DNA of 43,272 nucleotides, from positions 1 through 43,272 of the IMG/VR virus record IMGVR_UViG_3300032291_002993; one strand, 5' to 3'. Each line of letters begins with the position of its first letter. Positions within the stretch are counted from its first letter, which is position 1. Position numbers and translations under genes: made by a program. This DNA is from a virus. The notes under the pieces are model-generated. The model saw only the letters and a list, made by a program, of their open reading frames with translations. It was not told where the DNA came from and ran no database searches. This document shows, piece after piece, positions 662 through 39,706 of the stretch.

Positions 662-670
662 TATAAATAT
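662..670 (-). promoter_or_regulatory. ATATTTATA element, candidate promoter of the LamG fibre gene
   Basis: The coding strand reads ATATTTATA just after the terminator at 674-700 and about 16 nt before the TTG start. The terminator-element-gene order matches 35392-35400, 36442-36450 and 38823-38831. Confidence 0.45.
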
Positions 671-673
671 GGT

Positions 674-700
674 AATTAAAAAGGCACCAAGTGGTGCCTA
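674..700 (-). terminator. Rho-independent terminator after the glycosyltransferase operon
   Basis: A perfect 7-bp stem AGGCACC/GGTGCCT with a 4-nt loop is followed on the minus strand by TTTT then AATT. It lies 20 nt after the stop of the HtrL-GT2 gene and separates the sugar operon from the fibre gene. Confidence 0.8.
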
Positions 701-720
701 ATTTTATTTATTTATAAATA

Positions 721-2409
721 TTAATTTTCTCTACGTTCATGAGCTTCATACCAAATAATTCTATCATGCTTAACAGGTGAAGCTAATAATATAGCTGGTT
801 TAAGATTTCCTTTAATTGTTTCTTGGTACATAAATGACATCCAAGTTTGTTCATATGGGTGTGCCCATTCTGTATCTAAAAACATTTTTTGGTTACCTAC
901 TTTTCCAACAATCATAGGCCAATTACAATAATAAATTTCTCCATCAGCATATGATAAACCATGGAGATTATCAATTTTATTAAATTTAGTTCTTGGACAA
1001 TTTATATCTAAACCATTTACTGGTAATTTATTATAATTAGGCCATTGTTGAGTTCTAATATCTTGAGGAACATTATACCAAGAACATTGGAAATGATTAT
1101 CCATATAAACTTCTGTAAAAGATAATTTTAAGAAATCATATTCTTCTTTTAACATGATTTTATGGACTTTATTAAATAAATCTTCTTCAAATAATTTAAA
1201 TCCATTTCTGCAGAATCCAAGATCAGGTGGATATAAACACATATCATCTTCTAAAAAAATATAATAATCACTATCTGATTCTTGAAAATGTTTAGCAGCT
1301 AATAATCTACCTCTATTAATACCTAAATTTTCATTAGTAATAATATGTTCAAAACCATATTCTTCACAAATTGCTTTATTACCTTCTATTGCTTCTTCCT
1401 TATTAGAATTATCAATTAATATTTTTCTTGTTTTATTTAACCAATCTGGATGTAATTTATATGATTCTAAAGTATGTCTTAATTGTTCTGGAAAGTTAAA
1501 AGTAAGAATATATAATGATGTTTTTAAATTTGATGTATTTAAATTTTTAGGTTTTAAATATACTCTATTATCAGGAATAGGTTCTAATTCAACATTATCA
1601 TCTAATAATGCTTGAATAAATTTAATCACTAATCCATTTTCATCTAAAGCGTATCTTCTATATTTTTCAGGTTCAACATAAGACATTAAAGTAAAAATAC
1701 TTTCTTCAGTACCCATATATCCTTCACTTAATGATCTTTCTAACATTGAATAATACAAAGCATTAGCTTCATTTATTGCTTCTTTTTTACCACCAAATAA
1801 TCCTCCTCGACAAACATATTCTACATTAGTGCCAGAGTAACGATTCATAGCATCAAATCTAAAACCATGAATTTCATCTGTTGCATTATATGGATAACTT
1901 AAAAATAAAAATGAATCTAAATAAGGTGAAATCTTATCTAATACATTATTTTCAGTGAAATATTTTTCATATACAGTATTTGTTATTCCAGCATCTAACC
2001 AAAGAAATTTTTCAGTATTAAATGGATTCCATATAGTCACATCATTAAGTAAAAACATTTTAGATTGCACAATTGGATTATACCACTCAAGTGAAGCTTG
2101 AGGTGAAGTTGTTAACCATCCGCCTTCTCCAGTTTGATTATACCAATCAGGGTTGGTTCTTATTTCTTGTGTTTTATCCCAAAAAGGTCCATACATGTTT
2201 TTTACATCTGATAATTCATATATCTTAACAAATGTATTTTCTTTGTTTCTTTTTTCCCATACTAATGCTTCTAATTCCTTAGGAACATAAAGAAACAAAT
2301 TAGCATCTATTTCTAAAAAATGATTTAAATGTTGAATATAATGAGTAAATGGTCTTCCATCACGACCTATATTCCATAATCCTGTAACAATTGTTAAATT
2401 ACTATCCAT
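721..2409 (-). CDS. HtrL/YibB-like and GT2 glycosyltransferase fusion
   Basis: 562 residues in two parts. Residues 1-280 resemble the HtrL/YibB (WlaTC) family, opening with TIVTGLWNIGRDGRP and carrying WLDAG near 137-141 and a GGLFGG segment near 202-207. Residues about 297-562 are a GT-A glycosyltransferase with an acidic DxD-type motif LEDDM at 386-390, expected to bind a metal and a nucleotide-sugar. The product probably transfers sugars in two steps or onto two acceptors. It is last in a run of eight sugar genes and starts 1 nt after the stop of its upstream neighbour. Donor and acceptor cannot be read from the sequence; virion protein glycans or modified DNA are both possible. Confidence 0.75.
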   Translation of the reverse strand: MDSNLTIVTGLWNIGRDGRPFTHYIQHLNHFLEIDANLFLYVPKELEALVWEKRNKENTFVKIYELSDVKNMYGPFWDKTQEIRTNPDWYNQTGEGGWLTTSPQASLEWYNPIVQSKMFLLNDVTIWNPFNTEKFLWLDAGITNTVYEKYFTENNVLDKISPYLDSFLFLSYPYNATDEIHGFRFDAMNRYSGTNVEYVCRGGLFGGKKEAINEANALYYSMLERSLSEGYMGTEESIFTLMSYVEPEKYRRYALDENGLVIKFIQALLDDNVELEPIPDNRVYLKPKNLNTSNLKTSLYILTFNFPEQLRHTLESYKLHPDWLNKTRKILIDNSNKEEAIEGNKAICEEYGFEHIITNENLGINRGRLLAAKHFQESDSDYYIFLEDDMCLYPPDLGFCRNGFKLFEEDLFNKVHKIMLKEEYDFLKLSFTEVYMDNHFQCSWYNVPQDIRTQQWPNYNKLPVNGLDINCPRTKFNKIDNLHGLSYADGEIYYCNWPMIVGKVGNQKMFLDTEWAHPYEQTWMSFMYQETIKGNLKPAILLASPVKHDRIIWYEAHERREN

Positions 2410-9763: not shown

Positions 9764-9772
9764 TATAAATAT
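9764..9772 (-). promoter_or_regulatory. ATATTTATA element upstream of the 107-residue gene
   Basis: ATATTTATA on the coding strand, 26 nt before the ATG at 9738, in the 41-nt gap between two genes. Confidence 0.4.
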
Positions 9773-10864: not shown

Positions 10865-10868
10865 ATTT

Positions 10869-11507: not shown

Positions 11508-11508
11508 A

Positions 11509-11721: not shown

Positions 11722-11723
11722 GA

Positions 11724-12569: not shown

Positions 12570-12570
12570 A

Positions 12571-12729: not shown

Positions 12730-12732
12730 AAT

Positions 12733-12864: not shown

Positions 12865-12865
12865 A

Positions 12866-13690
12866 TTAATTATTATGTTCGTTTAAAACTTTTTCTACTG
12901 ATGATTTTGCTACTTCCCAAGTTACTGGACCTGTTTCATCTTCATATTGAACTGGATCTTTACGTCCTAATTTAATAAATGCTTCAACACGTTCAACAGA
13001 TGATGCTGATTTGTAATCTGAATTTCCATTTGGGTATGGTTTATAAGATGTATTAGTACGTTTATATACTTCATCAAAATTTAAACCTAATTCGTTACAT
13101 AATACTTCTCCATCTTGTAAGATAGTAAATTTATCTCCTTCAAGATATGGAGTAAAATATCCTACTCTTTCTGCTTCCCAATTTCCTAATCTAAAAGCTG
13201 CATCATCAGCATCTCTAAATTCTTGACGACAATCAGGATATATTGCATGATCTCCAGCGTGAATACCTAAAGCGATATCACAAGTTTCACCTGTTCTTTG
13301 TGCAACTGATAATGCTACTGCTTGAGTAATAGAAGCAAATATTTTATTTCTGTTAGGTACTACAGTTGCTTTCATATTATCTTCAGCATAGTGTCCTTCT
13401 GGTATATCATCACCTCCAGTTACTAAAGCTGAATCTAATAAATCAACTAATCCGTCTAATTTAATTTGGCGATAATTAATCATTGGATAAGCATCTTTAG
13501 ACTTACCTTCTACTAATCTTGTAAAATTTAAAATTTGAACTAATGATTGAGCTCTCTCTAACTCTACTCTGTGTTTTTGACCGTAGTCAAATGAAATTGC
13601 TGTTACTGTATCATACTCTTTCAAGCAACGTAACAATAATGTACTGGAATCCATACCACCTGAAAGTGATACTACAACGTGTTTTAACAT
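12866..13690 (-). CDS. queC: 7-cyano-7-deazaguanine (preQ0) synthase, zinc-site variant
   Basis: 274 residues. The PP-loop SLSGGMDSSTLLL (8-20) binds ATP, and FDYGQKHRVELERA (34-47) plus VVPNRNKIF (110-118) are QueC signatures. It converts 7-carboxy-7-deazaguanine to preQ0. The C-terminal zinc motif is altered: where canonical QueC has TxxCY and CGxCxxC, this protein has TNTSY (Ser215) and DYKSASSVERVEAF (Asp225, Ser228, Ser231). The flanking residues still align, so all four zinc Cys appear replaced while the framework is kept. Activity without zinc is plausible but unproven. Confidence 0.88.
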   Translation of the reverse strand: MLKHVVVSLSGGMDSSTLLLRCLKEYDTVTAISFDYGQKHRVELERAQSLVQILNFTRLVEGKSKDAYPMINYRQIKLDGLVDLLDSALVTGGDDIPEGHYAEDNMKATVVPNRNKIFASITQAVALSVAQRTGETCDIALGIHAGDHAIYPDCRQEFRDADDAAFRLGNWEAERVGYFTPYLEGDKFTILQDGEVLCNELGLNFDEVYKRTNTSYKPYPNGNSDYKSASSVERVEAFIKLGRKDPVQYEDETGPVTWEVAKSSVEKVLNEHNN

Positions 13691-13745
13691 AAATTTTATT
13701 TTATTTAAAGTATGCCAGGTATTTTAAGCGTATAGGCAAACGCTA

Positions 13746-13940
13746 TTAGTTCTTAAAATATAATTCTAAAAATGATTTTGGATACAACATAACTGGTCCT
13801 GAATATCTAGGATTTGATACTTCTCTAGTTAGTATTTTAATTTTTAATTCAGAGGCTTTATCAGCTACTTGTTTTCCTAATTCACCACCTGCTGCTTTTC
13901 CTAGAAAATCATACAGTGACATATAATCATTTTGTTCCAT
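13746..13940 (-). CDS. Hypothetical 64-residue protein
   Basis: 64 residues, not recognised. DYMSLYDFLGKAAGGELGKQ forms an acidic-to-helical N-terminus; the C-terminus PRYSGPVMLYPKSFLELYF is hydrophobic and aromatic. It sits 3 nt after the TGT-like gene and 55 nt before queC. Position inside the modification cluster is its only functional hint. Confidence 0.55.
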   Translation of the reverse strand: MEQNDYMSLYDFLGKAAGGELGKQVADKASELKIKILTREVSNPRYSGPVMLYPKSFLELYFKN

Positions 13941-13943
13941 AAC

Positions 13944-14726
13944 TTATTTTTTATTAATCATTTTTCTAAAATAATGCACATTATCTTGAATATAATCTAT
14001 ATTTGACATAACTTCTTTATCAAAAAATACTTCCATTTTTTCTTTAGGTTTAGAAGTCATACCAAATTTATTATAATATTCTTTTTTAACCCCATGTAAA
14101 ATTGGATTTGATGTATCTACAGATTTAATAAAATTATAACCTTCATAGTACATAAATTCTTGTGGTAATGAAGCACCTAATAGATGTACATAAACATCAT
14201 TATGAAATACTTCAGCCATCTGATGAACAGTTTGAATACGACCCATCATTTTAGATACTAAGTAATTTTTATGAGGAAATAATTTATTATAAGCTGATGA
14301 TGAATGATTAAGAGCAAAATAACGATATCCTAAATTATAACTAAATTTATATAATCTTCTAATTTCTTCAAATGATTCACCTTGTAATACAACCATTAAA
14401 TTAGTATCAGTTGGTAATTGATCTTTTAATTTAATCCATTCTTGAGCATGCTCATATGTTTTAGACCAATCATTCCATTCATCAGGAACAACAAATATAT
14501 CTGGATTTAATGATTTGATTAATTTAAGTAAATCATCTGTAGTATATGTTTCACCTTCAAATAAACCATTATCTAAAATTGAAAATCTACCTTCAGTTTT
14601 ACATTGAAGATAAAATTCTTTATATTCTGGATAACGTTTATAAAAATATGGTAAAATATATTCATAATCGTTTGTGGTTTTGCTCCACTCTAATAATTCT
14701 AAAGGTACTTCGTGACTAATTTTCAT
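13944..14726 (-). CDS. TGT/DpdA-like transglycosylase candidate
   Basis: 260 residues. Ordered motifs match the tRNA-guanine transglycosylase superfamily: LDNGLFEGE (Asp52, like TGT DSGG), VVPDEWND (Asp82, like the DE-C motif), VVLQGES (Gln115-Gly116, like VQGG), VHLLGASLPQEF (181-191, like LMGVGTPED) and SVDTSNP (Asp204, position of the catalytic Asp of TGT). The four-ligand zinc site of bacterial TGT is absent (only Cys42), and the protein is shorter than TGT (about 370). Lying between queC and queD, it is the best candidate for inserting preQ0 into phage DNA, as DpdA does. A TIM-barrel of other function is the alternative. Confidence 0.65.
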   Translation of the reverse strand: MKISHEVPLELLEWSKTTNDYEYILPYFYKRYPEYKEFYLQCKTEGRFSILDNGLFEGETYTTDDLLKLIKSLNPDIFVVPDEWNDWSKTYEHAQEWIKLKDQLPTDTNLMVVLQGESFEEIRRLYKFSYNLGYRYFALNHSSSAYNKLFPHKNYLVSKMMGRIQTVHQMAEVFHNDVYVHLLGASLPQEFMYYEGYNFIKSVDTSNPILHGVKKEYYNKFGMTSKPKEKMEVFFDKEVMSNIDYIQDNVHYFRKMINKK

Positions 14727-14955
14727 AGTGATATAACTTTTTCTTTAATTCATCAATTCGGATTTGCATATACCATTTTCCTAACCAGTTAGTTTTCTTT
14801 TGTTTTTCTTTCCACTCTTCAATTTCTTTATAGATAGGAGCATTGGCTTTATTTAACCAATCAATATCATCGTAACTATTATTTTCTAAATTTGCTACTG
14901 CTGGGTCTTCAGGTTTATTTTTTTCCGCTAATCTTTTATAAAAATTATCCTTCAT
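14716..14955 (-). CDS. Hypothetical charged 79-residue protein
   Basis: 79 residues, highly charged, rich in Lys/Glu/Trp, predicted helical (EIEEWKEKQKKTNWLGKW). It overlaps the TGT-like gene by 11 nt and queD by 11 nt, so it is translated with them. No recognisable domain; an accessory factor of the modification enzymes is possible only by position. Confidence 0.55.
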   Translation of the reverse strand: MKDNFYKRLAEKNKPEDPAVANLENNSYDDIDWLNKANAPIYKEIEEWKEKQKKTNWLGKWYMQIRIDELKKKLYHYEN

Positions 14956-15409
14956 ATATAGCAGTATTTTTAGCGTGTTCCATAAATTCTACTCTTGCAA
15001 TTTTAACTCTACCTTCTGTTTCTTCTTGAATAAATGTATTCAATTTTTCATAAACATATTTTGCAAATTGTTCTGCTCCAACAGCAGGAATAATTCTTAA
15101 CTGAATAATACCTAAATCATTCATAGTTTTAAATCCTCCTAAACCTGGATCATCTTCAGCAATAATTGTAGTATGATCAAACATATAATCCATCCACTCT
15201 TTAGGATTCATACCATCGATAGTTCCTTTAGCACGTTTCATGCCTCCAAAATCCCATACCCAGTTACGCTCATCTAATTCACCTTCAAACCATACTCTAA
15301 ATGATACACCATATCCATGTAAGAAACGACAATGTGTTCCTTCAGCTCTCCATTGACGAAATACACAACTGAATCCGTCAAATAATTTTGTTGATTGAAA
15401 TTTACTCAT
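14945..15409 (-). CDS. queD: 6-carboxy-tetrahydropterin synthase-like protein
   Basis: 154 residues, PTPS/QueD family. THCRFLHGYGVSFRVWFEG (25-43) carries the catalytic Cys27 and His31; FDHTTIIAEDDP (77-88) holds the Asp-His pair; IIPAVGAEQFAKYVY (107-121) and FMEHAKNTA complete the fold. It makes 6-carboxy-5,6,7,8-tetrahydropterin from dihydroneopterin triphosphate. The usual zinc triad is altered: the AAH His corresponds to Phe17 and HGH is HGY (Tyr33), while His26 next to Cys27 may substitute. This looks like a phage-type variant, not a decayed gene, since the rest is well kept. Confidence 0.82.
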   Translation of the reverse strand: MSKFQSTKLFDGFSCVFRQWRAEGTHCRFLHGYGVSFRVWFEGELDERNWVWDFGGMKRAKGTIDGMNPKEWMDYMFDHTTIIAEDDPGLGGFKTMNDLGIIQLRIIPAVGAEQFAKYVYEKLNTFIQEETEGRVKIARVEFMEHAKNTAIYEG

Positions 15410-15912
15410 GTACTTAATTTTTTAGGTCTTCCCCGTTTTGATTGATTTTTTTTATAACTGTAATTTGCTCTAATAAATGTATATAACTCTTCTAAGGTTC
15501 CGTCAAAAGTTTCCATTTCTTTTTCTAGATCTTCTTTTGTTATACTAAATAAACCTGTTATAGCTCTTTTATAATTTGATATACGTTCTTTTTCATCACG
15601 CTCAAAATCATTTAGTAAACGTCTATAACGTTCCATGAATATTGTTTGTTCTTCTCTACGAATATCTGGTTCTTTAATATGTCCTGTCTTAGCTTCCATC
15701 TCAATTAATGTGTGTTGAGCTTGAAACCAGTAGTGGGAGAAATCAAAATCTCCATTATCAATCCTGTCTGATATAGACGATTTGGATGACAATGGAGACT
15801 TATCTTTAAATTTTCTCCACCAGTAAAACTGGTTATATTTGATAGGAGTAAGTTTAGATATTTGTTTTTTAATAAACTTATTGTATTTTTCTACTGTCAT
15901 AACCTTTATCAT
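15406..15912 (-). CDS. Hypothetical basic protein with AT-hook-like tail
   Basis: 168 residues, not recognised. Lys/Arg-rich with long helices and a C-terminal KRGRPKKL, an AT-hook-like motif that could contact AT-rich DNA. ATG at 15912 is used; a second in-frame Met (residue 5) is possible. It overlaps queD by 4 nt and starts 43 nt after the nrdA stop. DNA binding is an inference from the tail alone. Confidence 0.55.
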   Translation of the reverse strand: MIKVMTVEKYNKFIKKQISKLTPIKYNQFYWWRKFKDKSPLSSKSSISDRIDNGDFDFSHYWFQAQHTLIEMEAKTGHIKEPDIRREEQTIFMERYRRLLNDFERDEKERISNYKRAITGLFSITKEDLEKEMETFDGTLEELYTFIRANYSYKKNQSKRGRPKKLST

Positions 15913-15955
15913 ACTTAAATATAAGTATAATTTTACCGGTTACCAAACAATCTTA

Positions 15956-18760: not shown

Positions 18761-19024
18761 TTAAAGGAGACGGTTTTCTAATTCCGTCATATTAAGATAT
18801 AGGATAAAATCTTCAAACACATCTTTAGAAATACCTTTTAATCCATTAGTATGTTCTTGAAGTAATTTAGATGAAACTTTACCACTAGTATTTTCTAAAA
18901 GTAGTGATTTAAAATTAACAAAAACTTCATTTATTAATTTAGACTCATTAATATCACCATATGCATCATTATCATCTTGATAATTAGACATTACTTCTTC
19001 AATTTGTTGTTTAGAGAACTCCAT
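18761..19024 (-). CDS. Hypothetical acidic 87-residue protein
   Basis: 87 residues, not recognised. Acidic N-terminus (MSNYQDDNDAYGDINES) and helical C-terminus (DVFEDFILYLNMTELENRL). Overlaps the DUF6884-like gene by 14 nt, so translation is coupled. Confidence 0.55.
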   Translation of the reverse strand: MEFSKQQIEEVMSNYQDDNDAYGDINESKLINEVFVNFKSLLLENTSGKVSSKLLQEHTNGLKGISKDVFEDFILYLNMTELENRLL

Positions 19025-19499
19025 TTTTATATAATTTTTTAACTTCCTTGATAATATAATTTGTTAATTTGATAATAGTTTCTTTTAATTTTTGTAATAA
19101 AGCCTTTTTCTGCTGACCAATACGTAAACCCTCTAATGGAACTTCAACATTTTTCATATGGGGTGTTAAATATTGACGATAAGCATTTCCTGCTAAAAAG
19201 ACAAATTTATCTTTATCAAGATCATAACCTTTCTCTTTTAATTGTTTTAATACTACTTCAGACCATTCTTTTCTAGCGTCAGATGGCATTTCCTTTAATG
19301 TTAAATTATAAGGAGCTATTGTTTTATTTAATGGAACTAGATGATATTTAGCGGAAATGATATAAATATTATTAGGACTTGCTAATTTTTTAGCATATGC
19401 TAATTGTTTTTGAAATAAATCCGAATTATATAATTGCTCTGCTGGAAGTGGTTTGTCTTCTTTACCTGCTGAACATGAAACTAATGCTATTGTACTCAT
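19011..19499 (-). CDS. DUF6884-like protein
   Basis: 162 residues. ALVSCSAGKEDKPLPAEQLY (5-24), IYIISAKYHLVPL (45-57), APYNLTL (62-68) and FLAGNAYRQYLTPHM fit the DUF6884 pattern (a CSxxK start, a SAK-x-x-L loop, a PY-x-x-TL segment, an LAG-x-x-Y strand). The family has no established activity that I can name. The C-terminus is a Lys-rich helical extension. It sits between the helicase and the RNR genes. A link to DNA base modification is speculative. Confidence 0.6.
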   Translation of the reverse strand: MSTIALVSCSAGKEDKPLPAEQLYNSDLFQKQLAYAKKLASPNNIYIISAKYHLVPLNKTIAPYNLTLKEMPSDARKEWSEVVLKQLKEKGYDLDKDKFVFLAGNAYRQYLTPHMKNVEVPLEGLRIGQQKKALLQKLKETIIKLTNYIIKEVKKLYKNGVL

Positions 19500-19518: not shown

Positions 19519-19527
19519 TATAAATAT
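19519..19527 (-). promoter_or_regulatory. ATATTTATA element upstream of the DUF6884-like gene
   Basis: ATATTTATA on the coding strand 20 nt before ATG at 19499, in the 30-nt gap after the helicase stop. Confidence 0.35.
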
Positions 19528-23059: not shown

Positions 23060-23863
23060 TTATTTAGTAAAAAGATCATCAAATTCACTCTCATCAAAAC
23101 CTTGTTTAGGTTTAGATGGTAATGCGTAATTAGACTTTGGTTCATCAACAAATGGTGATTCAGTTGTACCATCAACTGTTTCTTCAGTTGTTTCTTCAGA
23201 TGGTTCTAACCATTCCATTAACAATGTTTTCATTTCATCAAATTCATACTTTTTATAAAGTGCAATTGCATCTGGTTGTTCAGATAACCATAATTTGATT
23301 TGATCATTATCTTCAGATAATGCAGATGTTTTTGGTTTAATGCGAACTGATGATTTATTAAATTTAGTACCTGTAACTTCAGGACCAACAGTATCAATTG
23401 TTAAATCTCTACCATCCATAATATCTGTATAATCACCGATATCTTCATCCTCAGCTATACCTAATAATTCTAGATACATTTCTCTACCAAATTGCCATAA
23501 ACGAACACCTTTATCTTCCTCACCTCTAACGATTACAGGAACAAAAATTCTCATTTTTGGTTCAATTTTTTTAGCTAATGACCAATTTTCTTTGTCACTA
23601 GTTTTACGCAATTGAGATGCGAACTCAACAATTGGATCTTTTTCACCAAAGTTGCTTAATGATAACATTGTTTTGTTACCGATACCATAATGAAACATTA
23701 CTTCTCTAAATGGATTAGCTTTGTTTAATTTAGATGGAACGATACGAATTACTGATTTTCCTACTGTAGGAACCCAAGATGTTTTTGTGCGGTCTTCTTT
23801 TGTGCCGCCTCCTTTTTTGTTTTGCAGAGACGATAACCTGCTTTTGATTGCATTTAAATCCAT
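23060..23863 (-). CDS. Single-stranded DNA-binding protein (gp32-like)
   Basis: 267 residues. A basic N-terminus (IKSRLSSLQNKKGGG) for cooperativity, a central OB-type core with FREVMFHYGIGNKTMLSL and RLWQFGREMYLEL, and an acidic C-terminus ending in DESEFDDLFTK match the gp32 plan. There is no cysteine in the whole protein, so the zinc site of T4 gp32 is absent. It protects ssDNA and recruits partners through the acidic tail. First gene of the replication run, preceded by a terminator and a flavobacterial-type promoter. Confidence 0.85.
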   Translation of the reverse strand: MDLNAIKSRLSSLQNKKGGGTKEDRTKTSWVPTVGKSVIRIVPSKLNKANPFREVMFHYGIGNKTMLSLSNFGEKDPIVEFASQLRKTSDKENWSLAKKIEPKMRIFVPVIVRGEEDKGVRLWQFGREMYLELLGIAEDEDIGDYTDIMDGRDLTIDTVGPEVTGTKFNKSSVRIKPKTSALSEDNDQIKLWLSEQPDAIALYKKYEFDEMKTLLMEWLEPSEETTEETVDGTTESPFVDEPKSNYALPSKPKQGFDESEFDDLFTK

Positions 23864-23913
23864 GTTTTATAACTATTTTATTTATTAATTTATTTACTAT
23901 GTTAATATAACAT

Positions 23914-23943
23914 CAAATATGCTCATGGCCAAACCTAAGTCAA
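23914..23943 (-). promoter_or_regulatory. Bacteroidota-type promoter of the ssb-uvsX operon
   Basis: The coding strand has TTG (23943-23941), a 19-nt spacer, and CATATTTG (23921-23914). This fits the flavobacterial consensus TTG-N17-23-TAnnTTTG with one mismatch. It gives a leader of about 45 nt before ATG at 23863 and lies directly after a terminator. Confidence 0.55.
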
Positions 23944-23993: not shown

Positions 23994-24230
23994 TTAATAT
24001 ATATCTTCTTCATCCTCATTATCAGTAACATCAAATGTTTTTAGGAAATCTATTAATGTTAAAGATGGGTTGCTGTCAGCTGTTTCCATCAATTTATTTA
24101 CAAGTTCTGAATGATCTGTACTTGATAAATTATCATATATATTTTCTTCACTAACATTACCCCATGCACTTTCAGTAATTAGTCCAGCTAATTTCTGCAT
24201 TCTTTTTATTTCGTTTAATTGATTTTTCAT
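23994..24230 (-). CDS. Small phage protein with MQKLAG motif
   Basis: 78 residues. The N-terminus NEIKRMQKLAGLITES is a short helical motif I associate with many small proteins of large aquatic phages; its role is unknown. The C-terminus is acidic (DVTDNEDEEDIY). The ATG lies only 3 nt after an ATATTTATA element, so a transcript from it would be leaderless. Confidence 0.6.
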   Translation of the reverse strand: MKNQLNEIKRMQKLAGLITESAWGNVSEENIYDNLSSTDHSELVNKLMETADSNPSLTLIDFLKTFDVTDNEDEEDIY

Positions 24231-24233
24231 ATA

Positions 24234-24242
24234 TATAAATAT
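24234..24242 (-). promoter_or_regulatory. ATATTTATA element at the start of the 78-residue gene
   Basis: ATATTTATA on the coding strand, 3 nt before ATG at 24230, in the 19-nt gap between two genes. The short distance argues for caution in calling it a promoter. Confidence 0.25.
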
Positions 24243-30040: not shown

Positions 30041-30358
30041 TTATGAATTTAATTGATTAAAATCATTTAATATTTGATTAATATCACTAGGAATTCTTAA
30101 TTGATAACCAAGTGTTGGATATAAGGAATCATTTGGTAAATCAGGATTAGCAATAGATAATATCCACCATAAGGTAGAATCATTATAAAATTGATAAGCT
30201 AAATTATCTAATCTATCTCCTCTCATAGTATATAAATATACATCACTTTCTGATAAAGGAATATCAGGATATCTAACTGATTCTCTATATTTAATTACTT
30301 TGGGGTATTGTACTGTTGGTACAGTTTGAATTATCGGTACATTATCATAGCGTTCCAT
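30041..30358 (-). CDS. Baseplate wedge gp53-like protein with LysM-like domain
   Basis: 105 residues. GDRLDNLAYQFYNDSTLWWI followed by SIANPDLPNDSLYPTLGYQL and RIP is the LysM-like fold used by gp53-type wedge proteins. The conserved G-D-x-L-x-x-L-A core and final LRIP agree well. It sits 7 nt from the hub-like gene and 28 nt from the 652-residue gene. It would link wedges around the hub. Confidence 0.75.
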   Translation of the reverse strand: MERYDNVPIIQTVPTVQYPKVIKYRESVRYPDIPLSESDVYLYTMRGDRLDNLAYQFYNDSTLWWILSIANPDLPNDSLYPTLGYQLRIPSDINQILNDFNQLNS

Positions 30359-30361
30359 GAT

Positions 30362-30370
30362 AATAAATAT
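30362..30370 (-). promoter_or_regulatory. ATATTTATT element upstream of gp53-like gene
   Basis: One-mismatch copy of the ATATTTATA element, 3 nt before ATG at 30358; too close for a normal leader. Confidence 0.2.
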
Positions 30371-32355: not shown

Positions 32356-32925
32356 TTAGTATCTTCCTTCTTGAGGACCGTTGTCTTTATAAACTTTACC
32401 TACTGGTATACCGTTACTATCTAATTTAGATGGAGACACAAATGTTGTAAATCTACCTTTACCGTAAAATCTACCAGTTAATAAATCTTGAGAAGATTTT
32501 AATCCGTTATTTTTAGCTAAAGCTTGAATATCAGAAGTAGATAATTGACCTATATTTTCAAAATTAGGACCTTGTTTCCCACCTAAACCTAATTGACTAA
32601 ATTCTAATCTTTTATCTAAAGTAAAGCCCGTACCTGACGTTGAATTAAATTGTGATGGAACACCGGCATTTGTTGAACCTAGTTGATTAACATACTGTAA
32701 TGGTGTTTTACCGTCAATATCTAATGATGATGGTACTACTTTTACACGGTTAGGAGCTTGTCCATATGTTCTTCCGTCAGTTAAATCTTGTGATGATATT
32801 AGTATATTGTTTTTAGCTAAAGCTTGAATATTTGAAGAAGAACGTTGCCCTTCATTTTCAAACGCAGGACCTTGTTGTCCTTTTAAACTTATTGTACTGT
32901 CTTTTAATTTATCAAATAATGCCAT
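32356..32925 (-). CDS. Structural-region protein with an internal duplication
   Basis: 189 residues. Two copies of a roughly 40-residue unit: GQQGPAFENEGQRSSS then IQALAKNNILISSQDLTDGR, and GKQGPNFENIGQLSTS then IQALAKNNGLKSSQDLLTGR. Each copy ends in a R-x-YG turn. Gly/Ser/Asn-rich, no membrane segment. Between tape measure and the 652-residue gene, so probably a virion or assembly component. Confidence 0.6.
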   Translation of the reverse strand: MALFDKLKDSTISLKGQQGPAFENEGQRSSSNIQALAKNNILISSQDLTDGRTYGQAPNRVKVVPSSLDIDGKTPLQYVNQLGSTNAGVPSQFNSTSGTGFTLDKRLEFSQLGLGGKQGPNFENIGQLSTSDIQALAKNNGLKSSQDLLTGRFYGKGRFTTFVSPSKLDSNGIPVGKVYKDNGPQEGRY

Positions 32926-32941
32926 AATTGTTATTGTTTAG

Positions 32942-32950
32942 TATAAATAT
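32942..32950 (-). promoter_or_regulatory. ATATTTATA element upstream of the duplicated-unit gene
   Basis: ATATTTATA on the coding strand 17 nt before ATG at 32925; it touches the tape-measure stop codon. Followed by CTAAAC, as at 36442 and 662 where AAAC also follows. Confidence 0.4.
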
Positions 32951-35364
32951 TAATCAAATGCTCCTGAGTTACCATATTGGTTAGTAGCTGTATTCCATTG
33001 TGCTACTGTATTAGTGCCTACATCTAATTTAATAGGACGATAAGCTAATTGTTCTAATAATTCATTAGTTCGTCTTTGAGCATCTTGGTTAGCAACTTTT
33101 TTAGCTTCATCACGTTCTTTTGATTTTTCATTAGCATCATATGCACTTTTAAGCATACCAATAGAACCTCCTATTATAGCTCCTGCTATATTACCTAATC
33201 CTGGTATTACAGATCCTAATACTGCTCCATAACCCGCATATTGGGCTGTTGTACTTATACCGTCTACAGCATCTTTAGCTCCACCTTCTTCCATCTGGGA
33301 TGATATCGCACTTGCTCCTAATGATACTGCTGAACCTATCCCAAAACCTTTCATTCCCTTTGCTAATGATGTACCAAAAGACATCCCCCCAGTTACTTTA
33401 CCAAATTTTCCAAAACGTCCTTTTGAACCTCCTATGTTTGATATAGAATCCATAATACCACCATTACCACCTACACTTCCTACTTCTCTAGTAATCATAG
33501 GATTGAGATCAGATGATCCTCTAGCACCAAAAGCTAAACTTTTAATTAAACTTCCTCCTAATCTAACAGCACCTAACAATAAAGGAGCAGCGAGTATTGC
33601 TGATCCTAAAGCATTACCTAAAGGACCTCCAGTCAACTTACCCAACCCACTTATCATACTAGATACAAATCCCATTATTTTTTCCATTTGGCGAAATAGA
33701 ACACTCATAGGACCTGTAGTGAGTTTTGTTAAAATTTCATTTAATTTTGTAAATAAGTTATTTTGTTCATCAGCTAATGATTTTTGCTCATATTCTGCTC
33801 TTAAAGCATCATCTATTGCTATATTATGTTGAGTAGCATATTCTAATTTTTCTTTAGCTGATTTTGCTGTTGATCCTGCTAATTGTGCTTCAAATTCTTG
33901 TTTACGAAGCATCTTAGACATATCTTGAACTGACATACCAAATGCTTCAGCGTATGCTTTTCTTTGAATAACATTCATTTTTTCAAATTCATGAATGCCT
34001 CCTACTTGTTTAGCTACTTCTTTTGTTAAATTAGCTGTATCTCCTGTTAAAGAATATTCTCTAGCTTTTTCTAGATTAATAGCTTTACCTGTTAATAATT
34101 CAGCTTTAAGTTCATTTTCTATTGATGATTCAAAATTAAGTAAGGATTCACCTATTTGATTAACTTGTTCTAATGATAAACCTAATTTATCTGACTGCAT
34201 TACAGCCTGAGCTATTGCTTGAGTATTACCTTTAAAATTAATATATATATCATCACTAACATTAGCTACTTTATCTAATACTTTATTAAGAGATATAGTA
34301 CCGCCTGTTTGTGCTTTTTGAATACCAAATGTTTTAGCTGTTGTTTTTAAAAGATCTAAAGAGGTTTGACCTTGTGTAACAGAAGCTATGTTTAACTTAG
34401 CAGCTGATTCTTCACTTATCCCATAATAATGAGTTAAACGAGAAAAACCTTCAGCATTTTTTTCTCCTAAATTTACTGATGTACCTAAAGTTTCATTTAA
34501 TTTTTGTTGGGATTCAACTAAACGAGTTGCTGTTACAAAACTATCATTAGAAGTAGTTGAATATTTAAAAGCATTATTATATAACTCTTGAGATTCTTCT
34601 TTACTAATCCCTAATGTTCGTCCTGTTTTAGTATTTAATTCATCAAAAGCATATGCTGATTTTATTATTTTTGTGTAAAATGCTGTTAGTAAAGCAAATT
34701 GTACTAATGGATCTTTTAATCCTTCTTTTAATTGTTTACCTGCTGTTTTTAAACCTGCTCCAAACACATTAGTATTTCCAACAGCACTTCTCATGTTGGT
34801 ATTTATTTCTTCAAAATCAATAGCATCACCTAAAATAGGAATTTTTCCAAGTCCATTTAATAGTTTACCTGTTAAACCTACTCTTTTATCAACATATTCA
34901 TTTTGTTTCTTTAATTCTTCGCCTTCTTTTCTCTCAATATCTAATATTCTAAGTTCTTTTTCAAATTTGGCAGCTAATGTCTTATTATCTTGAGCGTAAG
35001 CTACATTTATTTGTCTTCTAATAGCTGTCTCAGTTCTATCTAATTGAGAAAGTTGTTTAGAAATATCTTTTGTTTTTAAAGTACCTTCATAAAATTTATC
35101 ATTTAGATATTGAAGTTCTTTATTAGTTTTATTTAAAGAATTATATATAGATTTAATCTCAGAAACTTGACGAACAGATGCACCTTGATCTTTAAGTTGA
35201 TTATTAATTAACTTAGAAATACTATCTAAACTATTTTCAATTTGATCATACGCATCTATTAAATCACCACTTATTTCTTTTTGTTTTTGTTGTTCAGAAG
35301 AAATTTTAGCTTGGGCTTGAGCCATCGCCTGTAATTGTTCTGGTGTAAATTGTGTATCCGCCAT
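32950..35364 (-). CDS. Tail tape measure protein
   Basis: 804 residues. Long helical N-terminal half rich in Gln/Lys/Glu, a middle region with repeated helix-turn units, then Gly/Ala-rich hydrophobic stretches (LGNALGSAILAAPLLLGAV and VIPGLGNIAGAIIGGSIGML), and a Lys-rich tail. This composition, its length and its place downstream of sheath, tube and the gp26/partner pair define a tape measure. It sets tail length and occupies the tube lumen. An ATATTTATA element lies 27 nt upstream. Confidence 0.85.
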   Translation of the reverse strand: MADTQFTPEQLQAMAQAQAKISSEQQKQKEISGDLIDAYDQIENSLDSISKLINNQLKDQGASVRQVSEIKSIYNSLNKTNKELQYLNDKFYEGTLKTKDISKQLSQLDRTETAIRRQINVAYAQDNKTLAAKFEKELRILDIERKEGEELKKQNEYVDKRVGLTGKLLNGLGKIPILGDAIDFEEINTNMRSAVGNTNVFGAGLKTAGKQLKEGLKDPLVQFALLTAFYTKIIKSAYAFDELNTKTGRTLGISKEESQELYNNAFKYSTTSNDSFVTATRLVESQQKLNETLGTSVNLGEKNAEGFSRLTHYYGISEESAAKLNIASVTQGQTSLDLLKTTAKTFGIQKAQTGGTISLNKVLDKVANVSDDIYINFKGNTQAIAQAVMQSDKLGLSLEQVNQIGESLLNFESSIENELKAELLTGKAINLEKAREYSLTGDTANLTKEVAKQVGGIHEFEKMNVIQRKAYAEAFGMSVQDMSKMLRKQEFEAQLAGSTAKSAKEKLEYATQHNIAIDDALRAEYEQKSLADEQNNLFTKLNEILTKLTTGPMSVLFRQMEKIMGFVSSMISGLGKLTGGPLGNALGSAILAAPLLLGAVRLGGSLIKSLAFGARGSSDLNPMITREVGSVGGNGGIMDSISNIGGSKGRFGKFGKVTGGMSFGTSLAKGMKGFGIGSAVSLGASAISSQMEEGGAKDAVDGISTTAQYAGYGAVLGSVIPGLGNIAGAIIGGSIGMLKSAYDANEKSKERDEAKKVANQDAQRRTNELLEQLAYRPIKLDVGTNTVAQWNTATNQYGNSGAFD

Positions 35365-35391: not shown

Positions 35392-35400
35392 TATAAATAT
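35392..35400 (-). promoter_or_regulatory. ATATTTATA element upstream of the tape measure gene
   Basis: ATATTTATA on the coding strand 27 nt before ATG at 35364 and 3 nt after the terminator stem and T-run ending near 35403. Confidence 0.5.
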
Positions 35401-35427
35401 GAAAAGCACCTATTTTTTAGGTGCTTT
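35400..35427 (-). terminator. Terminator overlapping the end of the gp26 partner ORF
   Basis: A 10-bp stem AAAGCACCTA/TAGGTGCTTT with a 5-nt A-loop is followed by TC-AT on the coding strand; the T-run closes the stem. The hairpin encodes the last codons and TAG stop of the 92-residue ORF. Confidence 0.7.
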
Positions 35428-35688
35428 CATTTTAGTTGCAAAATCTGGTACTTGTATTTTTCCTTTTTGTGAACTAGAATTTTCTAATGTTTGGTTTTTT
35501 GCATTAGTTATTTCATTTTGTTTATCTATATATTCTGCTATTTTTTTTAGATGATAATGTCTATATCTAATAGGCATATTGTATACATCATCATGTGTAA
35601 AACCACCTTGTCCAAAATAACACAATGAATGTATTTCTTCTAATAATACTATTTTATATTCCGGCGTCAGGCCAAAAAAAGCTAGCAC
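35410..35688 (-). CDS. gp26 partner ORF, probably expressed by frameshifting
   Basis: 92 residues if started at GTG 35688. It overlaps the gp26-like gene by 35 nt in another frame. FFGLTPEYKIVLLEEIHSL and HDDVYNMPIRYRHYHLKKI resemble small proteins that follow gp26-like genes in aquatic myoviruses. A TAG lies directly before the GTG and no Shine-Dalgarno precedes it, whereas a run of seven T in the overlap would allow a +1 or -2 shift, giving a fusion of about 335 residues. It may serve as a tail/baseplate assembly factor, by analogy with frameshifted chaperones before tape measures. Confidence 0.6.
   Translation of the reverse strand: MLAFFGLTPEYKIVLLEEIHSLCYFGQGGFTHDDVYNMPIRYRHYHLKKIAEYIDKQNEITNAKNQTLENSSSQKGKIQVPDFATKMKAPKK
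35654..35688 (-). other. Candidate programmed frameshift site
   Basis: In the overlap the coding strand reads AGC-TTT-TTT-TGG in the gp26 frame (T-run at 35680-35674). Skipping one T or slipping back two joins ...GASFF to GLTPEY of the downstream frame. Confidence 0.5.
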
Positions 35689-36418
35689 CTATTGGTAAGT
35701 CAACGCCCTCCATAACGTCACCATTAGCTTTAGTAAAACTAACTTTTAAATTAACATCTGGAGATATTTTATTAACATATTCTCTAAATGATCTAACATC
35801 TCTTGCTAATATATTATCAGAAAATTCTCTAACTGTAGCTACATCTCTATCTCCATTAATAGCTATAATAGTATGTTTTAAACGAGTAGTGACATCATAT
35901 GATCCTTGAGCATTTAATTTTTTTAATCCAGCTATTTCTTTATCTAATTTAACTTCATCACCATGTGTTAATAATTTAAAAGTAATTACTACTTTAGATA
36001 TAGGTAATTCAAAATTAAATTCATTTTTACCGGGTGTAAATATTTTTTCATCTATTTCTTTTGCATCTAATAATGATAAATCTGATGTTACTTTTTCAGA
36101 AATTCCTGTATTAGGATCAGTGTAAATGAATTCATAATCTTTACCATATCCTAAAATACGAGCAGCTAATAAAATAGCATTTTTATCACCATTTAATAAT
36201 TCATTATAATCAATAGGTGTTACAATCATTGATTGAAGTAATTTATCAATTACAGTACCCTGACGAATAAAGTTAGCATTAGAAAGAATATCTTCTTCTT
36301 TTGCAGTCATATACTTCATTTCAATAGTACCTTTTGATAATGGAGATTCTTTTGGATAGATTAAACCTTTAGAAGGTAAATCAATTTGTTCTGTTGGATA
36401 TTTAAATTTTTGTTCCAT
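35654..36418 (-). CDS. Baseplate protein, T4 gp26-like
   Basis: 254 residues. IDLPSKGLIYPKESPLSKG (17-35) followed by IEMKYMTAKEEDIL and VIDKLLQSMI is the marker of the T4 baseplate protein family that includes gp26. LLNGDKNAILLAARILGYG is also typical. It ends with GASFFWPDAGI. Expected in hub assembly. Preceded by a strong terminator and an ATATTTATA element, so it probably begins a transcription unit with its frameshift partner. Confidence 0.8.
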   Translation of the reverse strand: MEQKFKYPTEQIDLPSKGLIYPKESPLSKGTIEMKYMTAKEEDILSNANFIRQGTVIDKLLQSMIVTPIDYNELLNGDKNAILLAARILGYGKDYEFIYTDPNTGISEKVTSDLSLLDAKEIDEKIFTPGKNEFNFELPISKVVITFKLLTHGDEVKLDKEIAGLKKLNAQGSYDVTTRLKHTIIAINGDRDVATVREFSDNILARDVRSFREYVNKISPDVNLKVSFTKANGDVMEGVDLPIGASFFWPDAGI

Positions 36419-36441
36419 AACGGGTTTTTATTGTTTATATA

Positions 36442-36450
36442 TATAAATAT
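36442..36450 (-). promoter_or_regulatory. ATATTTATA element upstream of the gp26-like gene
   Basis: ATATTTATA on the coding strand 23 nt before ATG at 36418 and 8 nt after the T-run of the terminator at 36459; followed by TATATAAAC. Confidence 0.5.
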
Positions 36451-36458
36451 ATAAGGAT

Positions 36459-36492
36459 AAAAAAAGCCGTCCAAAATGGACGACTCTTTTTT
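36459..36492 (-). terminator. Strong terminator after the tail tube gene
   Basis: Stem GTCGTCC/GGACGGC (one G-U pair) extended by an A-run/T-run, loop ATTTT, followed by seven T on the coding strand. It lies 24 nt after the tube gene stop. Confidence 0.9.
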
Positions 36493-36515
36493 AAGATATT
36501 GATGACTAAAGAATA

Positions 36516-37001
36516 TTAGTAATTTAAGATGCAATAATCCATAGCGATTGTAGTACTGATACTTACATATGATTCATTTGACCAATCATATTCACCAAAG
36601 TTAGCTTCTTTAACATAAGCACCTTTGATAATCCATTCACCTACTACATCACCAACTGGTCCTAAGATGTCTAAACGTAGATCTTTTTTATAAAAATCTG
36701 AGTAACCATCACGGCCTGTTACTGATTCGTGAGCTAAACGTGCCCATTCCATTACTGCTTGTGCACCAGATGGAGTAACTGGATCGTATAATTCTAAAGT
36801 CATGTCATTCCATCTTACTTTACCTTTAACTTTACGATAAACGTTGATATGATCTAAGATAATTTCACCTGCGTTGAATGATGGAGATGATGCTTTTTTA
36901 ATTAAATATGAAGGAATACCATCAATATACATTAAGAAGCGATTTTGAACTTTTGGTTCAAACGCGGTGAACATTACTTCGGTTGGGTCTAATACTGCCA
37001 T
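36516..37001 (-). CDS. Tail tube protein (gp19-like)
   Basis: 161 residues. NRFLMYIDGIPSYLIKKAS (21-39), WNDMTLELYDPVTPSGAQAV and the final SYVSISTTIAMDYCILNY match the T4 tail tube family (PF06841-type), of usual length near 160. It forms the inner tube around the tape measure. Immediately downstream of the sheath gene, followed by a strong terminator, consistent with high expression. Confidence 0.92.
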   Translation of the reverse strand: MAVLDPTEVMFTAFEPKVQNRFLMYIDGIPSYLIKKASSPSFNAGEIILDHINVYRKVKGKVRWNDMTLELYDPVTPSGAQAVMEWARLAHESVTGRDGYSDFYKKDLRLDILGPVGDVVGEWIIKGAYVKEANFGEYDWSNESYVSISTTIAMDYCILNY

Positions 37002-37018
37002 TTTATTATTTTGTTTAA

Positions 37019-37027
37019 TATAAATAT
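37019..37027 (-). promoter_or_regulatory. ATATTTATA element upstream of the tube gene
   Basis: ATATTTATA on the coding strand 18 nt before ATG at 37001, inside the 40-nt gap after the sheath stop; no terminator precedes it. Confidence 0.45.
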
Positions 37028-37041
37028 TATCGTTCTAAAAA

Positions 37042-38796
37042 TTATGCACCAAATTCTACACCAGTAGGCAACACGTTGAAGTCTAATAAGATAAATTCAG
37101 CTGTACGGGTTGGTTGTAAGTAAATTTGTCCTACTAATTGATTTCTATCAATTACATCTGGAGTATTATTAGTGTCATCCATTACTACTTTGAAAGCATA
37201 TAAACCTTGACGTTGTTGTACTGATTCTAAGTATGGAGTAACTTGAGATAAGAATCTATTTCTTGTTACAGTTGTATTTTGTTCGAATACTAATGTTTTA
37301 CCTACGTTACCAATATAACGTTTTAAGCTAATTAATAAACGACGAACGTTGATTCTATCTAAAGCACTTGATTTTTGTTGTAATGTTTTCTGACCAAACG
37401 CTGTTACACCTACGTTAGGGAAGGTAGCGATTGGATTTACTTTTCCAGCATATAAGTTATCACGGTTAGTTGGAGATAATTTTCTTTCTGCTTGAATTAC
37501 ACCACCTAAACCACCACGATTTAGACCAGCAGGAGCAAACCATTCAGCACTAACATTATCGTTAAATGCGTAAACACCAGCCATAATTGTTGAGGCAGGT
37601 ACCCAAACTAATTTACCAGTTTCTTGAGATACTACTTGAACCCATGGCCAATAAGCACCAGCGTAATTAGTATTTAACTCAGCTGCTTCAGTTACTGGAG
37701 TTGAAATTGTTGAATTATAAGCTACTAAGTCAGCGATATAGAAATAATCACCTCTATCTTCAGCATTTGAAATAAATGTAGAAACAGCAGTATGATTAGA
37801 GCTAACCAATCCTGGAGTTACTAATAATTCAAAGTCATATTCATCTTTATTTGATAATATATTACTTGCAGTAACATAATTATTACTTACTAAACCTTGA
37901 GTTGTAGTACTGATGTTTTCAAACAATGTAGATCCAATGAATGGAATGTCATTACCTGCTGCTCCATCAAATGATCCACCATATGAACCACTACCAGCTA
38001 ATGGTAATGAAGCTGAGTAAGATAATCCTGTTACCAAATCTACTGCTACGCCACCTGCATTATTAAAGTAATTAGGGGTTGGTTTATTAACTGATTTTAC
38101 TCTTACATAACGGCTATTATTTACATAGTCACCGCTAGTTTTAATATAATATCCTCCCATATCAGCATCATACTGAACAGTTTTGGTTTGATTACCAACT
38201 ACAGCAGAAATATAATTTGGAGCATTTGGATCTAATGATACATTAGTGTAGGTTTCTAAAATAACTGGTGTGTTAGTATTATCATCCCCTCTATGTACTA
38301 ATAAAGTAAAAGTACCATTACTAGCATTTATATTTCTTACTTCCCATTTAATATTTTCTAATGATCCACTAGCTAAAGCACCATTACTCAAAATTGAGCT
38401 AGTATTATTAACCATTGTACCAACATTTAATGTTTCTAGAACAAATGAAGCTGTAGGAGTAGCTAATGAAGAACCAGATACTAACACTGATGCTGAAGCA
38501 GGAGTAAAAGAACCACTAGTTACTCTAGTAACTAATATACTAGTTCCACCTTGTTGGAAATAATTATAAGCTGTTACTGATGTTAAAAATTCATAATTTG
38601 CTCCACCGCTAACAAATGATCCACCAAATCTATTAATATAATCACTATAAGAAGTAACTACAGTTGGAATATTTGGTGTACCTTTAACAGTAGGGCCAAC
38701 TAACGCCAAACCAACAGAAACTGGTAATTGGGTTATTTGTGATAAGTCGTTCTCTCTTGTAAGAACTCCTGGGGAAATTAATGTTTCTTGCGCCAT
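37042..38796 (-). CDS. Contractile tail sheath protein (gp18-like)
   Basis: 584 residues. ETLISPGVLTRENDLSQITQ (4-23) and SVGLALVGPTVKGTPNIPT are the N-terminal signature of tail sheaths. The C-terminal half has NPIATFPNVGVTAFGQKTL, INVRRLLISLKRYI and EFILLDFNVLPTG, the conserved sheath core. The middle (about 100-330) is a variable Ser/Thr/Asn-rich insertion domain likely exposed on the surface. It contracts to drive the tube through the envelope. It starts a unit preceded by a terminator and an ATATTTATA-like element. Confidence 0.94.
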   Translation of the reverse strand: MAQETLISPGVLTRENDLSQITQLPVSVGLALVGPTVKGTPNIPTVVTSYSDYINRFGGSFVSGGANYEFLTSVTAYNYFQQGGTSILVTRVTSGSFTPASASVLVSGSSLATPTASFVLETLNVGTMVNNTSSILSNGALASGSLENIKWEVRNINASNGTFTLLVHRGDDNTNTPVILETYTNVSLDPNAPNYISAVVGNQTKTVQYDADMGGYYIKTSGDYVNNSRYVRVKSVNKPTPNYFNNAGGVAVDLVTGLSYSASLPLAGSGSYGGSFDGAAGNDIPFIGSTLFENISTTTQGLVSNNYVTASNILSNKDEYDFELLVTPGLVSSNHTAVSTFISNAEDRGDYFYIADLVAYNSTISTPVTEAAELNTNYAGAYWPWVQVVSQETGKLVWVPASTIMAGVYAFNDNVSAEWFAPAGLNRGGLGGVIQAERKLSPTNRDNLYAGKVNPIATFPNVGVTAFGQKTLQQKSSALDRINVRRLLISLKRYIGNVGKTLVFEQNTTVTRNRFLSQVTPYLESVQQRQGLYAFKVVMDDTNNTPDVIDRNQLVGQIYLQPTRTAEFILLDFNVLPTGVEFGA

Positions 38797-38822
38797 GTTT
38801 TTAATTAGATTTTTTGTCTAGT

Positions 38823-38831
38823 GATAAATAT
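38823..38831 (-). promoter_or_regulatory. ATATTTATC element upstream of the sheath gene
   Basis: One-mismatch copy of the element 26 nt before ATG at 38796, after the terminator at 38849-38882. Same order as 35392 and 36442. Confidence 0.45.
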
Positions 38832-38848
38832 ATAAAATATTCTATAAA

Positions 38849-38882
38849 ACGAAAAACCTCATCGTTATTGATGAGGTCTTTT
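38849..38882 (-). terminator. Terminator between the 81-residue gene and the sheath
   Basis: Perfect 8-bp stem ACCTCATC/GATGAGGT with a 6-nt loop, followed on the coding strand by TTTTCGTTTT. Confidence 0.88.
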
Positions 38883-38902
38883 ATTAATATATACGCTAAG
38901 TA

Positions 38903-39148
38903 TTAATCAATTACTCCAGTTTCAATATTAATTGTACCTGTACCGTATTTTTCATTTAGCGTTTTAGCTAGTTCAGCTTCTCTTTCAATTAGTTGTTTAT
39001 GAGAATCTAAATAATATTGTTTATCTTTATTAAGATTAGATATTGATAATTCAATTTCTCCTAATGATAAAGCTAAATTAGAGTACTCTTGTTTAATTGA
39101 TTTAACTGCTGTTAATTCTTCAGTTGTTAATTGTTTTACTTCGCTCAT
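38903..39148 (-). CDS. Small coiled-coil protein
   Basis: 81 residues. Helical heptad pattern from residue 5 to about 65 (ELTAVKSIKQEYSNLALSLG), ending in KYGTGTINIETG. I have seen this plan (helix plus an INIETG tail) in many large phages; function unknown. It overlaps nothing but lies 3 nt after its membrane-protein neighbour, and a terminator follows. Confidence 0.6.
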   Translation of the reverse strand: MSEVKQLTTEELTAVKSIKQEYSNLALSLGEIELSISNLNKDKQYYLDSHKQLIEREAELAKTLNEKYGTGTINIETGVID

Positions 39149-39151
39149 AAA

Positions 39152-39472
39152 TTATTTTTTATTTGTTTTTTTGCCTCTTCTTTTGTTTCCTTTAGTGGCT
39201 TGAACTACATCTTCTGATTGTTTAACAACTTCTTTAACGGCTTCAACAACATCTGCTGCTTCTACTTTAACTTGTTCTACACGAGATTTTACTTCTTCAA
39301 CAATTTCTTTAACATCTTCGATTTTTTCATCGATGACTTCTTTAATGTCTTCAATTTTTTCATCGATAACGTCAGGAATGTTGTTGTTGTTTTTGTCTTT
39401 GATTTTACCCAATTTCATTAAGGCAAAAATTACTGCTACAGCTATTATAGCTGCGATAATAAAAATAGTCAT
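39152..39472 (-). CDS. Membrane-anchored coiled-coil protein
   Basis: 106 residues. One N-terminal membrane helix (IFIIAAIIAVAVIFALM, 3-19), then DKNNNNIPDVIDEKIE, a Ca-loop-like Asp/Asn segment, a duplicated heptad DEKIEDIKEV/DEKIEDVKEI, and a Lys/Arg-rich tail GNKRRGKKTNKK. The anchored extended helix with a basic end would suit an inner-membrane spanin-like or phage membrane scaffold role, but no match to a lysis family is claimed. Confidence 0.55.
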   Translation of the reverse strand: MTIFIIAAIIAVAVIFALMKLGKIKDKNNNNIPDVIDEKIEDIKEVIDEKIEDVKEIVEEVKSRVEQVKVEAADVVEAVKEVVKQSEDVVQATKGNKRRGKKTNKK

Positions 39473-39476
39473 AATT

Positions 39477-39659
39477 TTATTTTTTAGTTTTTAATTTAGT
39501 TACTTTTTTTGTTTTTGTTTTTGGATTTTTTACAAGATCATAATTTTCTACAGGTACTCTATCATCTTCTTTTTCTGAGTAAGAAAAATAAGTTATTAAA
39601 TAAGATATTCCTACTATTATAAGAATACAAGAGATAATAATTAATAATAAGATTGTCAT
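39477..39659 (-). CDS. Small membrane protein with Lys-rich tail
   Basis: 60 residues. Hydrophobic residues 2-25 form one membrane helix (ILLLIIISCILIIVGISYL), followed by an acidic patch and a Lys/Thr-rich tail. It starts 79 nt after the 87-residue gene and lies 4 nt before the other membrane protein, so they may act together. Function unknown. Confidence 0.55.
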   Translation of the reverse strand: MTILLLIIISCILIIVGISYLITYFSYSEKEDDRVPVENYDLVKNPKTKTKKVTKLKTKK

Positions 39660-39697
39660 AAATAAATTTAGCAGATTAATGGTTAATAATTTTCATA

Positions 39698-39706
39698 TAT
39701 AAATAT
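39698..39706 (-). promoter_or_regulatory. ATATTTATA element upstream of the small membrane proteins
   Basis: ATATTTATA on the coding strand 39 nt before ATG at 39659, within a 78-nt gap that holds no ORF and no hairpin terminator. Confidence 0.4.

Follow-up and report, generated by a model that had tools for sequence, protein, structure and literature searches.

We analysed the complete 43,272 nucleotides of the virus record IMGVR_UViG_3300032291_002993 (hereafter the window), a viral contig of 71% AT whose source record is likewise only 43 kb long; the coding strand is the minus strand and only 4.6% of the window is noncoding. Matches to PHROG families include structural genes (tail sheath, tail tube, baseplate hub and tape measure) as well as genes for UvsX, a gp32-like single-stranded DNA-binding protein (SSB), a DnaB-type helicase, ribonucleotide reductase and queuosine-type functions. 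Of the named phages, the immuto phages of Flavobacterium are nearest, followed by Mel-JY01, whose recorded host is the cyanobacterium Microcystis elabens; the phages of this clade mostly infect Flavobacterium-type bacteria. Gaps between genes of the window repeatedly carry one short directional word, ATATTTATA, which is very probably a real, conserved late promoter box.

An initial annotation, made from the sequence alone, had listed eleven copies of this box, exact or with one mismatch, at gene borders, and had proposed a phage-specific late promoter. All eleven were found, on the minus (coding) strand (Table 1), and they are exact at 662, 9764, 19519, 24234, 32942, 35392, 36442, 37019 and 39698, with one mismatch at 30362 (ATATTTATT) and 38823 (ATATTTATC); three more exact copies had been overlooked, one at 713, flanked by a stop codon and the 682-699 terminator, and two (19361 and 30231) within genes. 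The exact word occurs 12 times on the coding strand and not once on the other (binomial p 0.0005), and its placement in gaps holds up, as 10 of the 12 copies are noncoding in a window of so little noncoding DNA (p 3e-12); the strict gaps contain seven copies vs a mean of 0.41 in dinucleotide shuffles (maximum 5 in 2000 shuffles). The weak point of the claim is its one-mismatch looseness: counted in that way, the motif gives 118 matches in the whole window vs 121.7 expected, which is no enrichment, and for this reason only variants that were exact or attested in the clade were accepted in our counts. The proposed order of terminator, element and leader is seen at 662, 35392, 36442 and 38823, where terminators lie directly upstream.

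Table 1. Putative late boxes, terminators and contrasting host-type promoters in the window.
Feature	Position	Strand	Context
Late box ATATTTATA	39698..39706	-	38 nt before open reading frame (ORF) 39477-39659; TTG at -33 spacing also present
Late box variant ATATTTATC	38823..38831	-	Before tail sheath gene 37042-38796
Intrinsic terminator	38852..38881	-	Directly upstream of 38823 box
Late box	37019..37027	-	Before tail tube gene 36516-37001; predicted start site 37015
Late box	36442..36450	-	Before baseplate-hub-like gene 35654-36418
Terminator (hairpin then T run)	36468..36482	-	Upstream of 36442 box
Late box	35392..35400	-	Before tape measure gene 32950-35364
Intrinsic terminator	35402..35428	-	Directly upstream of 35392 box
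Late box	32942..32950	-	Before ORF 32356-32925
Late box variant ATATTTATT	30362..30370	-	3 nt before ATG of baseplate gene 30041-30358; predicted leaderless
Late box	24234..24242	-	3 nt before ATG of ORF 23994-24230; predicted leaderless
Late box	19519..19527	-	Before ORF 19011-19499
Late box	9764..9772	-	Before ORF 9415-9738; the window's only gap site with a pyrimidine at the predicted +1
Late box	662..670	-	Before Ser/Thr/Pro-rich repeat gene cut by window edge
Intrinsic terminator hairpin	682..699	-	Upstream of 662 box
Exact copy, doubtful promoter	713..721	-	Between stop codon of ORF 721-2409 and terminator
Host-type promoter TTG-N20-TATATTTA (contrast class)	15916..15946	-	Before ORF 15406-15912; 5 orthologous sites in relatives
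Host-type variant TTG-N20-TATATTAA (approximate place)	23888..23930	-	Before SSB gene 23060-23863; 28 orthologous host-type sites in relatives

The same directional pattern is conserved among relatives. Across 80 tail-sheath loci (786 kb, 4.5% noncoding), 318 of the 323 sense copies lie in gaps and 5 in genes, with 2 antisense copies in gaps and 8 in genes, and a k-mer search blind to the motif, in which words in gaps were scored as sense minus antisense, ranked ATATTTATA first (286 sense vs 2 antisense). The box also keeps to particular orthologous genes: it lies within 60 nt upstream of the tail tube gene at 79 of 80 loci, of the sheath gene at 69 of 76, of the hub gene at 50 of 60 and of the tape measure gene at all 21, where 3% would be expected by composition. 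Orthologues of ORF 32356-32925 have a box upstream in 8 of 8 cases, and at helicase loci 18 of the 25 mapped boxes precede orthologues of ORF 19011-19499. The ATATTTATC variant recurs in gaps of close relatives (13 sense, 0 antisense), and the whole immuto genome holds 16 sense boxes and 1 antisense, with both the A and the C form in use; the clade consensus is MTATTTAT[A/T/C], where M is A or C and the last position is mostly A. Enrichment in gaps, use of a single strand, presence across a whole isolate genome and the gp55-type sigma candidate described below, which correspond to checks proposed in the initial annotation, all back a phage-specific late promoter. Among 30 of the 218 papers matching the string ATATTTATA we recognized none naming this box, and a literature search thin in subscription journals found none on Flavobacterium phage late promoters or on Mel-JY01.

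No conserved -35 or -33 partner accompanies the box, as all upstream columns carry 0.33 bits or less (322 sites), and TTG at the host spacing is present in 12% of late sites vs 19 of 19 early-type sites (see below). The strongest downstream column is the fourth base after the box, which is A at 0.76, G at 0.20, T at 0.03 and C at 0.01 (96% purine) over the 292 sites with at least 10 nt between box and ATG. In Flavobacterium johnsoniae, transcription begins 4-5 nt past the -7 element TAHHTTTG (PMC6847099), and aligning the ATATTTA of the late box with that element leads to an expected start at the third or fourth base after the box; the fourth base is our predicted transcription start. Distances from box to ATG form a short group, with a narrow maximum at 3 nt (26 sites) followed by 4 nt (16) and 5 nt (11), and a second, broad group from 13 to 31 nt. 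The initial annotation had counted against its own proposal two copies (24234 and 30362) too close to their ATG; both are indeed exactly 3 nt from it, a spacing that fits leaderless transcripts, and leaderless messages are what we would predict for the whole 3-nt group, these two sites included.

A second, host-type class of promoters is present in the same phages. The Bacteroidota housekeeping promoter, served by sigma-ABfr, consists of a -33 TTTG and a -7 TANNTTTG (PMC6847099), and in immuto gaps TTG-N20-TATATTTAG was found in 19 of 19 sites, clustered at 20-25 kb and 60-76 kb, which is the host pattern save for A instead of G at -5. Tail loci contain 290 late-type vs 2 early-type sites, and helicase loci contain 68 early-type sites, of which 28 precede the SSB gene, and 41 late-type boxes, so that the two classes divide the genome by gene function. 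The Bacteroidota likeness suggested by the initial annotation therefore stands only in part: the ATATTTA core is common to the late box, the host -7 element and the early-type promoters of these phages, and the distance to the start is the same, but true host-type promoters are separate and precede other genes. With the exception of A for G at -5, the early-type class carries the TTTG and TANNTTTG elements; the late box does not, being usually without a -33 element, keeping neither T-12 nor G-5, and having another downstream extension. The late box as a host promoter was accordingly rejected, the host class having been found separately. As a side observation, the 19 early-type gap sites of immuto (L169, L171) have a long conserved tail, GGTATCAATAATTAAAAC, after the -7 box, which extends toward the ATG beyond what a promoter needs.

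A candidate reader of the late box is encoded in the clade. The gp55 profile phrog_234 matched one homologous gene in immuto and in the genomes G001, G002 and G004, weakly (E 1e-4 to 8e-3); the immuto member is gp118, annotated as hypothetical. This family is strongly conserved (232-270 aa), is present in all four of the near-complete genomes that retain its neighbour gene, and contains a sigma-2-like stretch, FDxTxGAKAxSYFxTIVKRWLI, which may be set beside FDxxxxxNPxAYxTQ of gp55. In hhalign the family aligns co-linearly from Met1 with ten gp55 proteins (E 0.0016), and its AlphaFold model (pLDDT 76) has as best viral match in Foldseek a named phage sigma subunit (prob 0.99, E 0.017); a PDB sequence search with the candidate gave no significant sigma match. 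Consistent but weak, the matches suggest that the gp118 family is sigma-like and probably related to gp55, distantly. The immuto gene lies directly downstream of the early-type cluster, with a late box 12 nt past its stop codon, and in several other subclades the sigma gene is likewise followed by a box. Absence of the gene from the 155-kb contig G005 was considered as counter-evidence and discarded, as the neighbour gene is missing too and the region is probably off the contig; nor was the gene found in 21 shorter contigs, a result that carries no weight either way.

In the subclade L200-L262, recognized by its sigma gene, CTATTTATA is strongly directional (72 to 1) and the bias of ATATTTATA is small (33 to 20). 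The sigma relative of these phages is 57-65% identical to gp118, and with CTATTTATA replacing ATATTTATA the two form a natural sigma-box pair. Mel-JY01 has a sigma relative of 36% identity and GGAG-type (Shine-Dalgarno-type) leaders, and in the 97 kb examined the top directional 8-mer in its gaps is ATATTTAT (15 to 1). If the recorded host is right, this persistence of box and sigma implies that the box goes with the sigma of the phage rather than with that of the host. We judge it likely that the box is read by the gp118 family.

The T4 late promoter, TATAAATA, works with gp55, gp33 and gp45 (PMC2988020), and its cyanophage form is NATAAATA (PMC2984593). Like it, the clade element is a single AT-only -10 box of 8-9 bp, with no -35 element and an AT-rich start region, positioned before structural genes of T4-like myoviruses that encode a phage sigma-region-2 protein (here a candidate). 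Unlike T4, the clade has MTATTTATA in place of TATAAATA and no detectable gp33 or T4-type gp45: the profile phrog_254 (gp33) matched in none of five clade genomes and phrog_223 (gp45) in none of six, with T4 and HTVC008M matching both as positive controls, and immuto is annotated with a family A DNA polymerase. The search for sigma partners to which the initial annotation had pointed thus yielded a gp55-type candidate but no gp33 in the clade genomes. The candidate also differs from T4 gp55 in being longer, in having an extra conserved C-terminal domain, and in having no consistent C-terminal clamp-binding motif, which, as a crude pattern, was met in 3 of 24 family members and at no conserved position; the pattern is present in T4, two T4 kin and HTVC008M, yet it is matched by just 4 of the 10 gp55 sequences in the set. 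Judging from these profiles, the clamp and co-activator are apparently not used in late transcription of the clade. T4 late transcription begins about one helical turn past its box and late in infection; the purine at a fixed position in 96% of clade sites is only an indirect sign of such a start. In sum, the clade promoter appears to work like the T4 late promoter and differs in sequence and in its known partner set.

The initial annotation had further taken the box for the T4 promoter in reverse complement, which did not survive a directional test. Sense TATAAATA is rare, almost nil, in the clade, and nearly every match there is the new box read in antisense. Applied to the control HTVC008M, which has a strong gp55, a test of this kind recovers TATAAATA among the highest-ranked words (8 to 1) but not ATATTTAT, and a reversed T4 promoter was rejected. 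Outside the T4-like phages, the phiEco32/7-11 phages are described as encoding a protein similar to the promoter-specificity sigma subunit of RNA polymerase (PMC8948821). That sigma is likewise phage-encoded, but the phages are unrelated.

We consider it quite likely that ATATTTATA is the single -10-type late-promoter element of a T4-like myovirus clade that includes immuto, and that it is read by a gp118-type sigma; the promoter itself is well supported, and its reader and activation we infer. Under this proposal, the host RNA polymerase core loaded with a gp118-type sigma would melt the box and start 4 nt downstream; leaders would then measure about 10-28 nt, and messages with their ATG 3 nt past the box would be leaderless. 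Early and replication genes would be transcribed from the host-type TTG-N20-TATATTTAG promoters; the sigma of immuto, its gene placed just past the early-type cluster, would be made first and then turn on the late boxes, and the terminators upstream of several boxes may insulate the late units. Several observations weigh against the proposal. A few boxes precede non-structural genes, and the 12% of sites with TTG at host spacing are compatible with use of the host sigma there. Pfam Sigma70_r2 matched 15 of 24 family members weakly and below cut-off (best E 0.011), the hhalign probability for gp55 is just 16% despite its E-value, and a PDB fold search with the AlphaFold model found nothing significant, its two best matches being sigma factors. 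The window is a fragment without the sigma gene and no contig joining the gene to the window's closest relatives was found. The link from sigma to box is made only by co-occurrence and weak remote homology.

In the strongest alternative, unmodified sigma-A, with no phage sigma involved, reads the box as a weak form of the host -7 element, and lateness is conferred by another activator or by DNA replication. It draws on the ATATTTA core common to the host-type promoters, on the minority of sites with TTG at exactly the host spacing, and on the fact that the -33 element of F. johnsoniae is itself weak (PMC6847099). We nevertheless regard it as unlikely: the late box lacks the host consensus T-12 and G-5 and has a fixed extension of its own, TTTATA, the promoter classes split sharply by gene type, the box persists in Mel-JY01 with a recorded host outside the Bacteroidota, and the clade has conserved a sigma-like gene. 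It is far less probable that the element acts in RNA, as an AU-rich signal for mRNA processing, stability or translation; it does occur near start codons and on the sense strand only, but its distance to the ATG (3 to about 31 nt) is too variable for a translation signal, the purine at a fixed downstream distance fits a start site, and separate terminators lie upstream. A chance origin in the AT-rich gaps of this genome (71% AT), for which the lack of one-mismatch enrichment in the window could be cited, is practically untenable, being refuted by the strand and orthologue counts, the excess of exact copies over shuffles of the same gaps, and antisense counts near zero in the same gaps over hundreds of kb.

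Other features of these genomes deserve mention. FolE, QueD, QueE, QueC and phosphoribosyltransferase genes lie at 10472-15409 of the window, and DpdA is also found in immuto; together they represent a probable 7-deazaguanine DNA modification. At 6893-9380, two neighbouring genes match the glycosyltransferase family phrog_24687, a tandem duplication. The Ser/Thr/Pro-rich repeat protein at 1-660, which has a late box in front, runs past the window edge. Between head genes of Mel-JY01 sits a phage gene (L331:14184-14411) that carries the annotation ribosomal protein S21.

The standard example of replication-coupled gene control is late transcription in T4, with its clamp-activated gp55. The T4 logic appears to be kept in a large environmental clade of T4-like phages, with a different box and sigma and with no detectable clamp or co-activator. 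More tentatively, since we put its chances at somewhat under even, this may be a second, independent T4-like solution to late transcription, in which a phage sigma joining a gp55-like region 2 to a new C-terminal domain reads MTATTTATA and works without clamp or gp33, at least a tenth of the late mRNAs are leaderless, and the sigma-box pair has been kept from Bacteroidota to cyanobacteria. If the clade does make do with another box and sigma and no clamp or co-activator, a T4-like way of life would not require the clamp link, and the clade would offer a natural set of sigma-box pairs, with A-type and C-type boxes, for work on recognition. The box may serve as a late-gene marker in metagenomic phage genomes, assign function to proteins annotated as hypothetical, and offer phage-specific expression signals for Bacteroidota.

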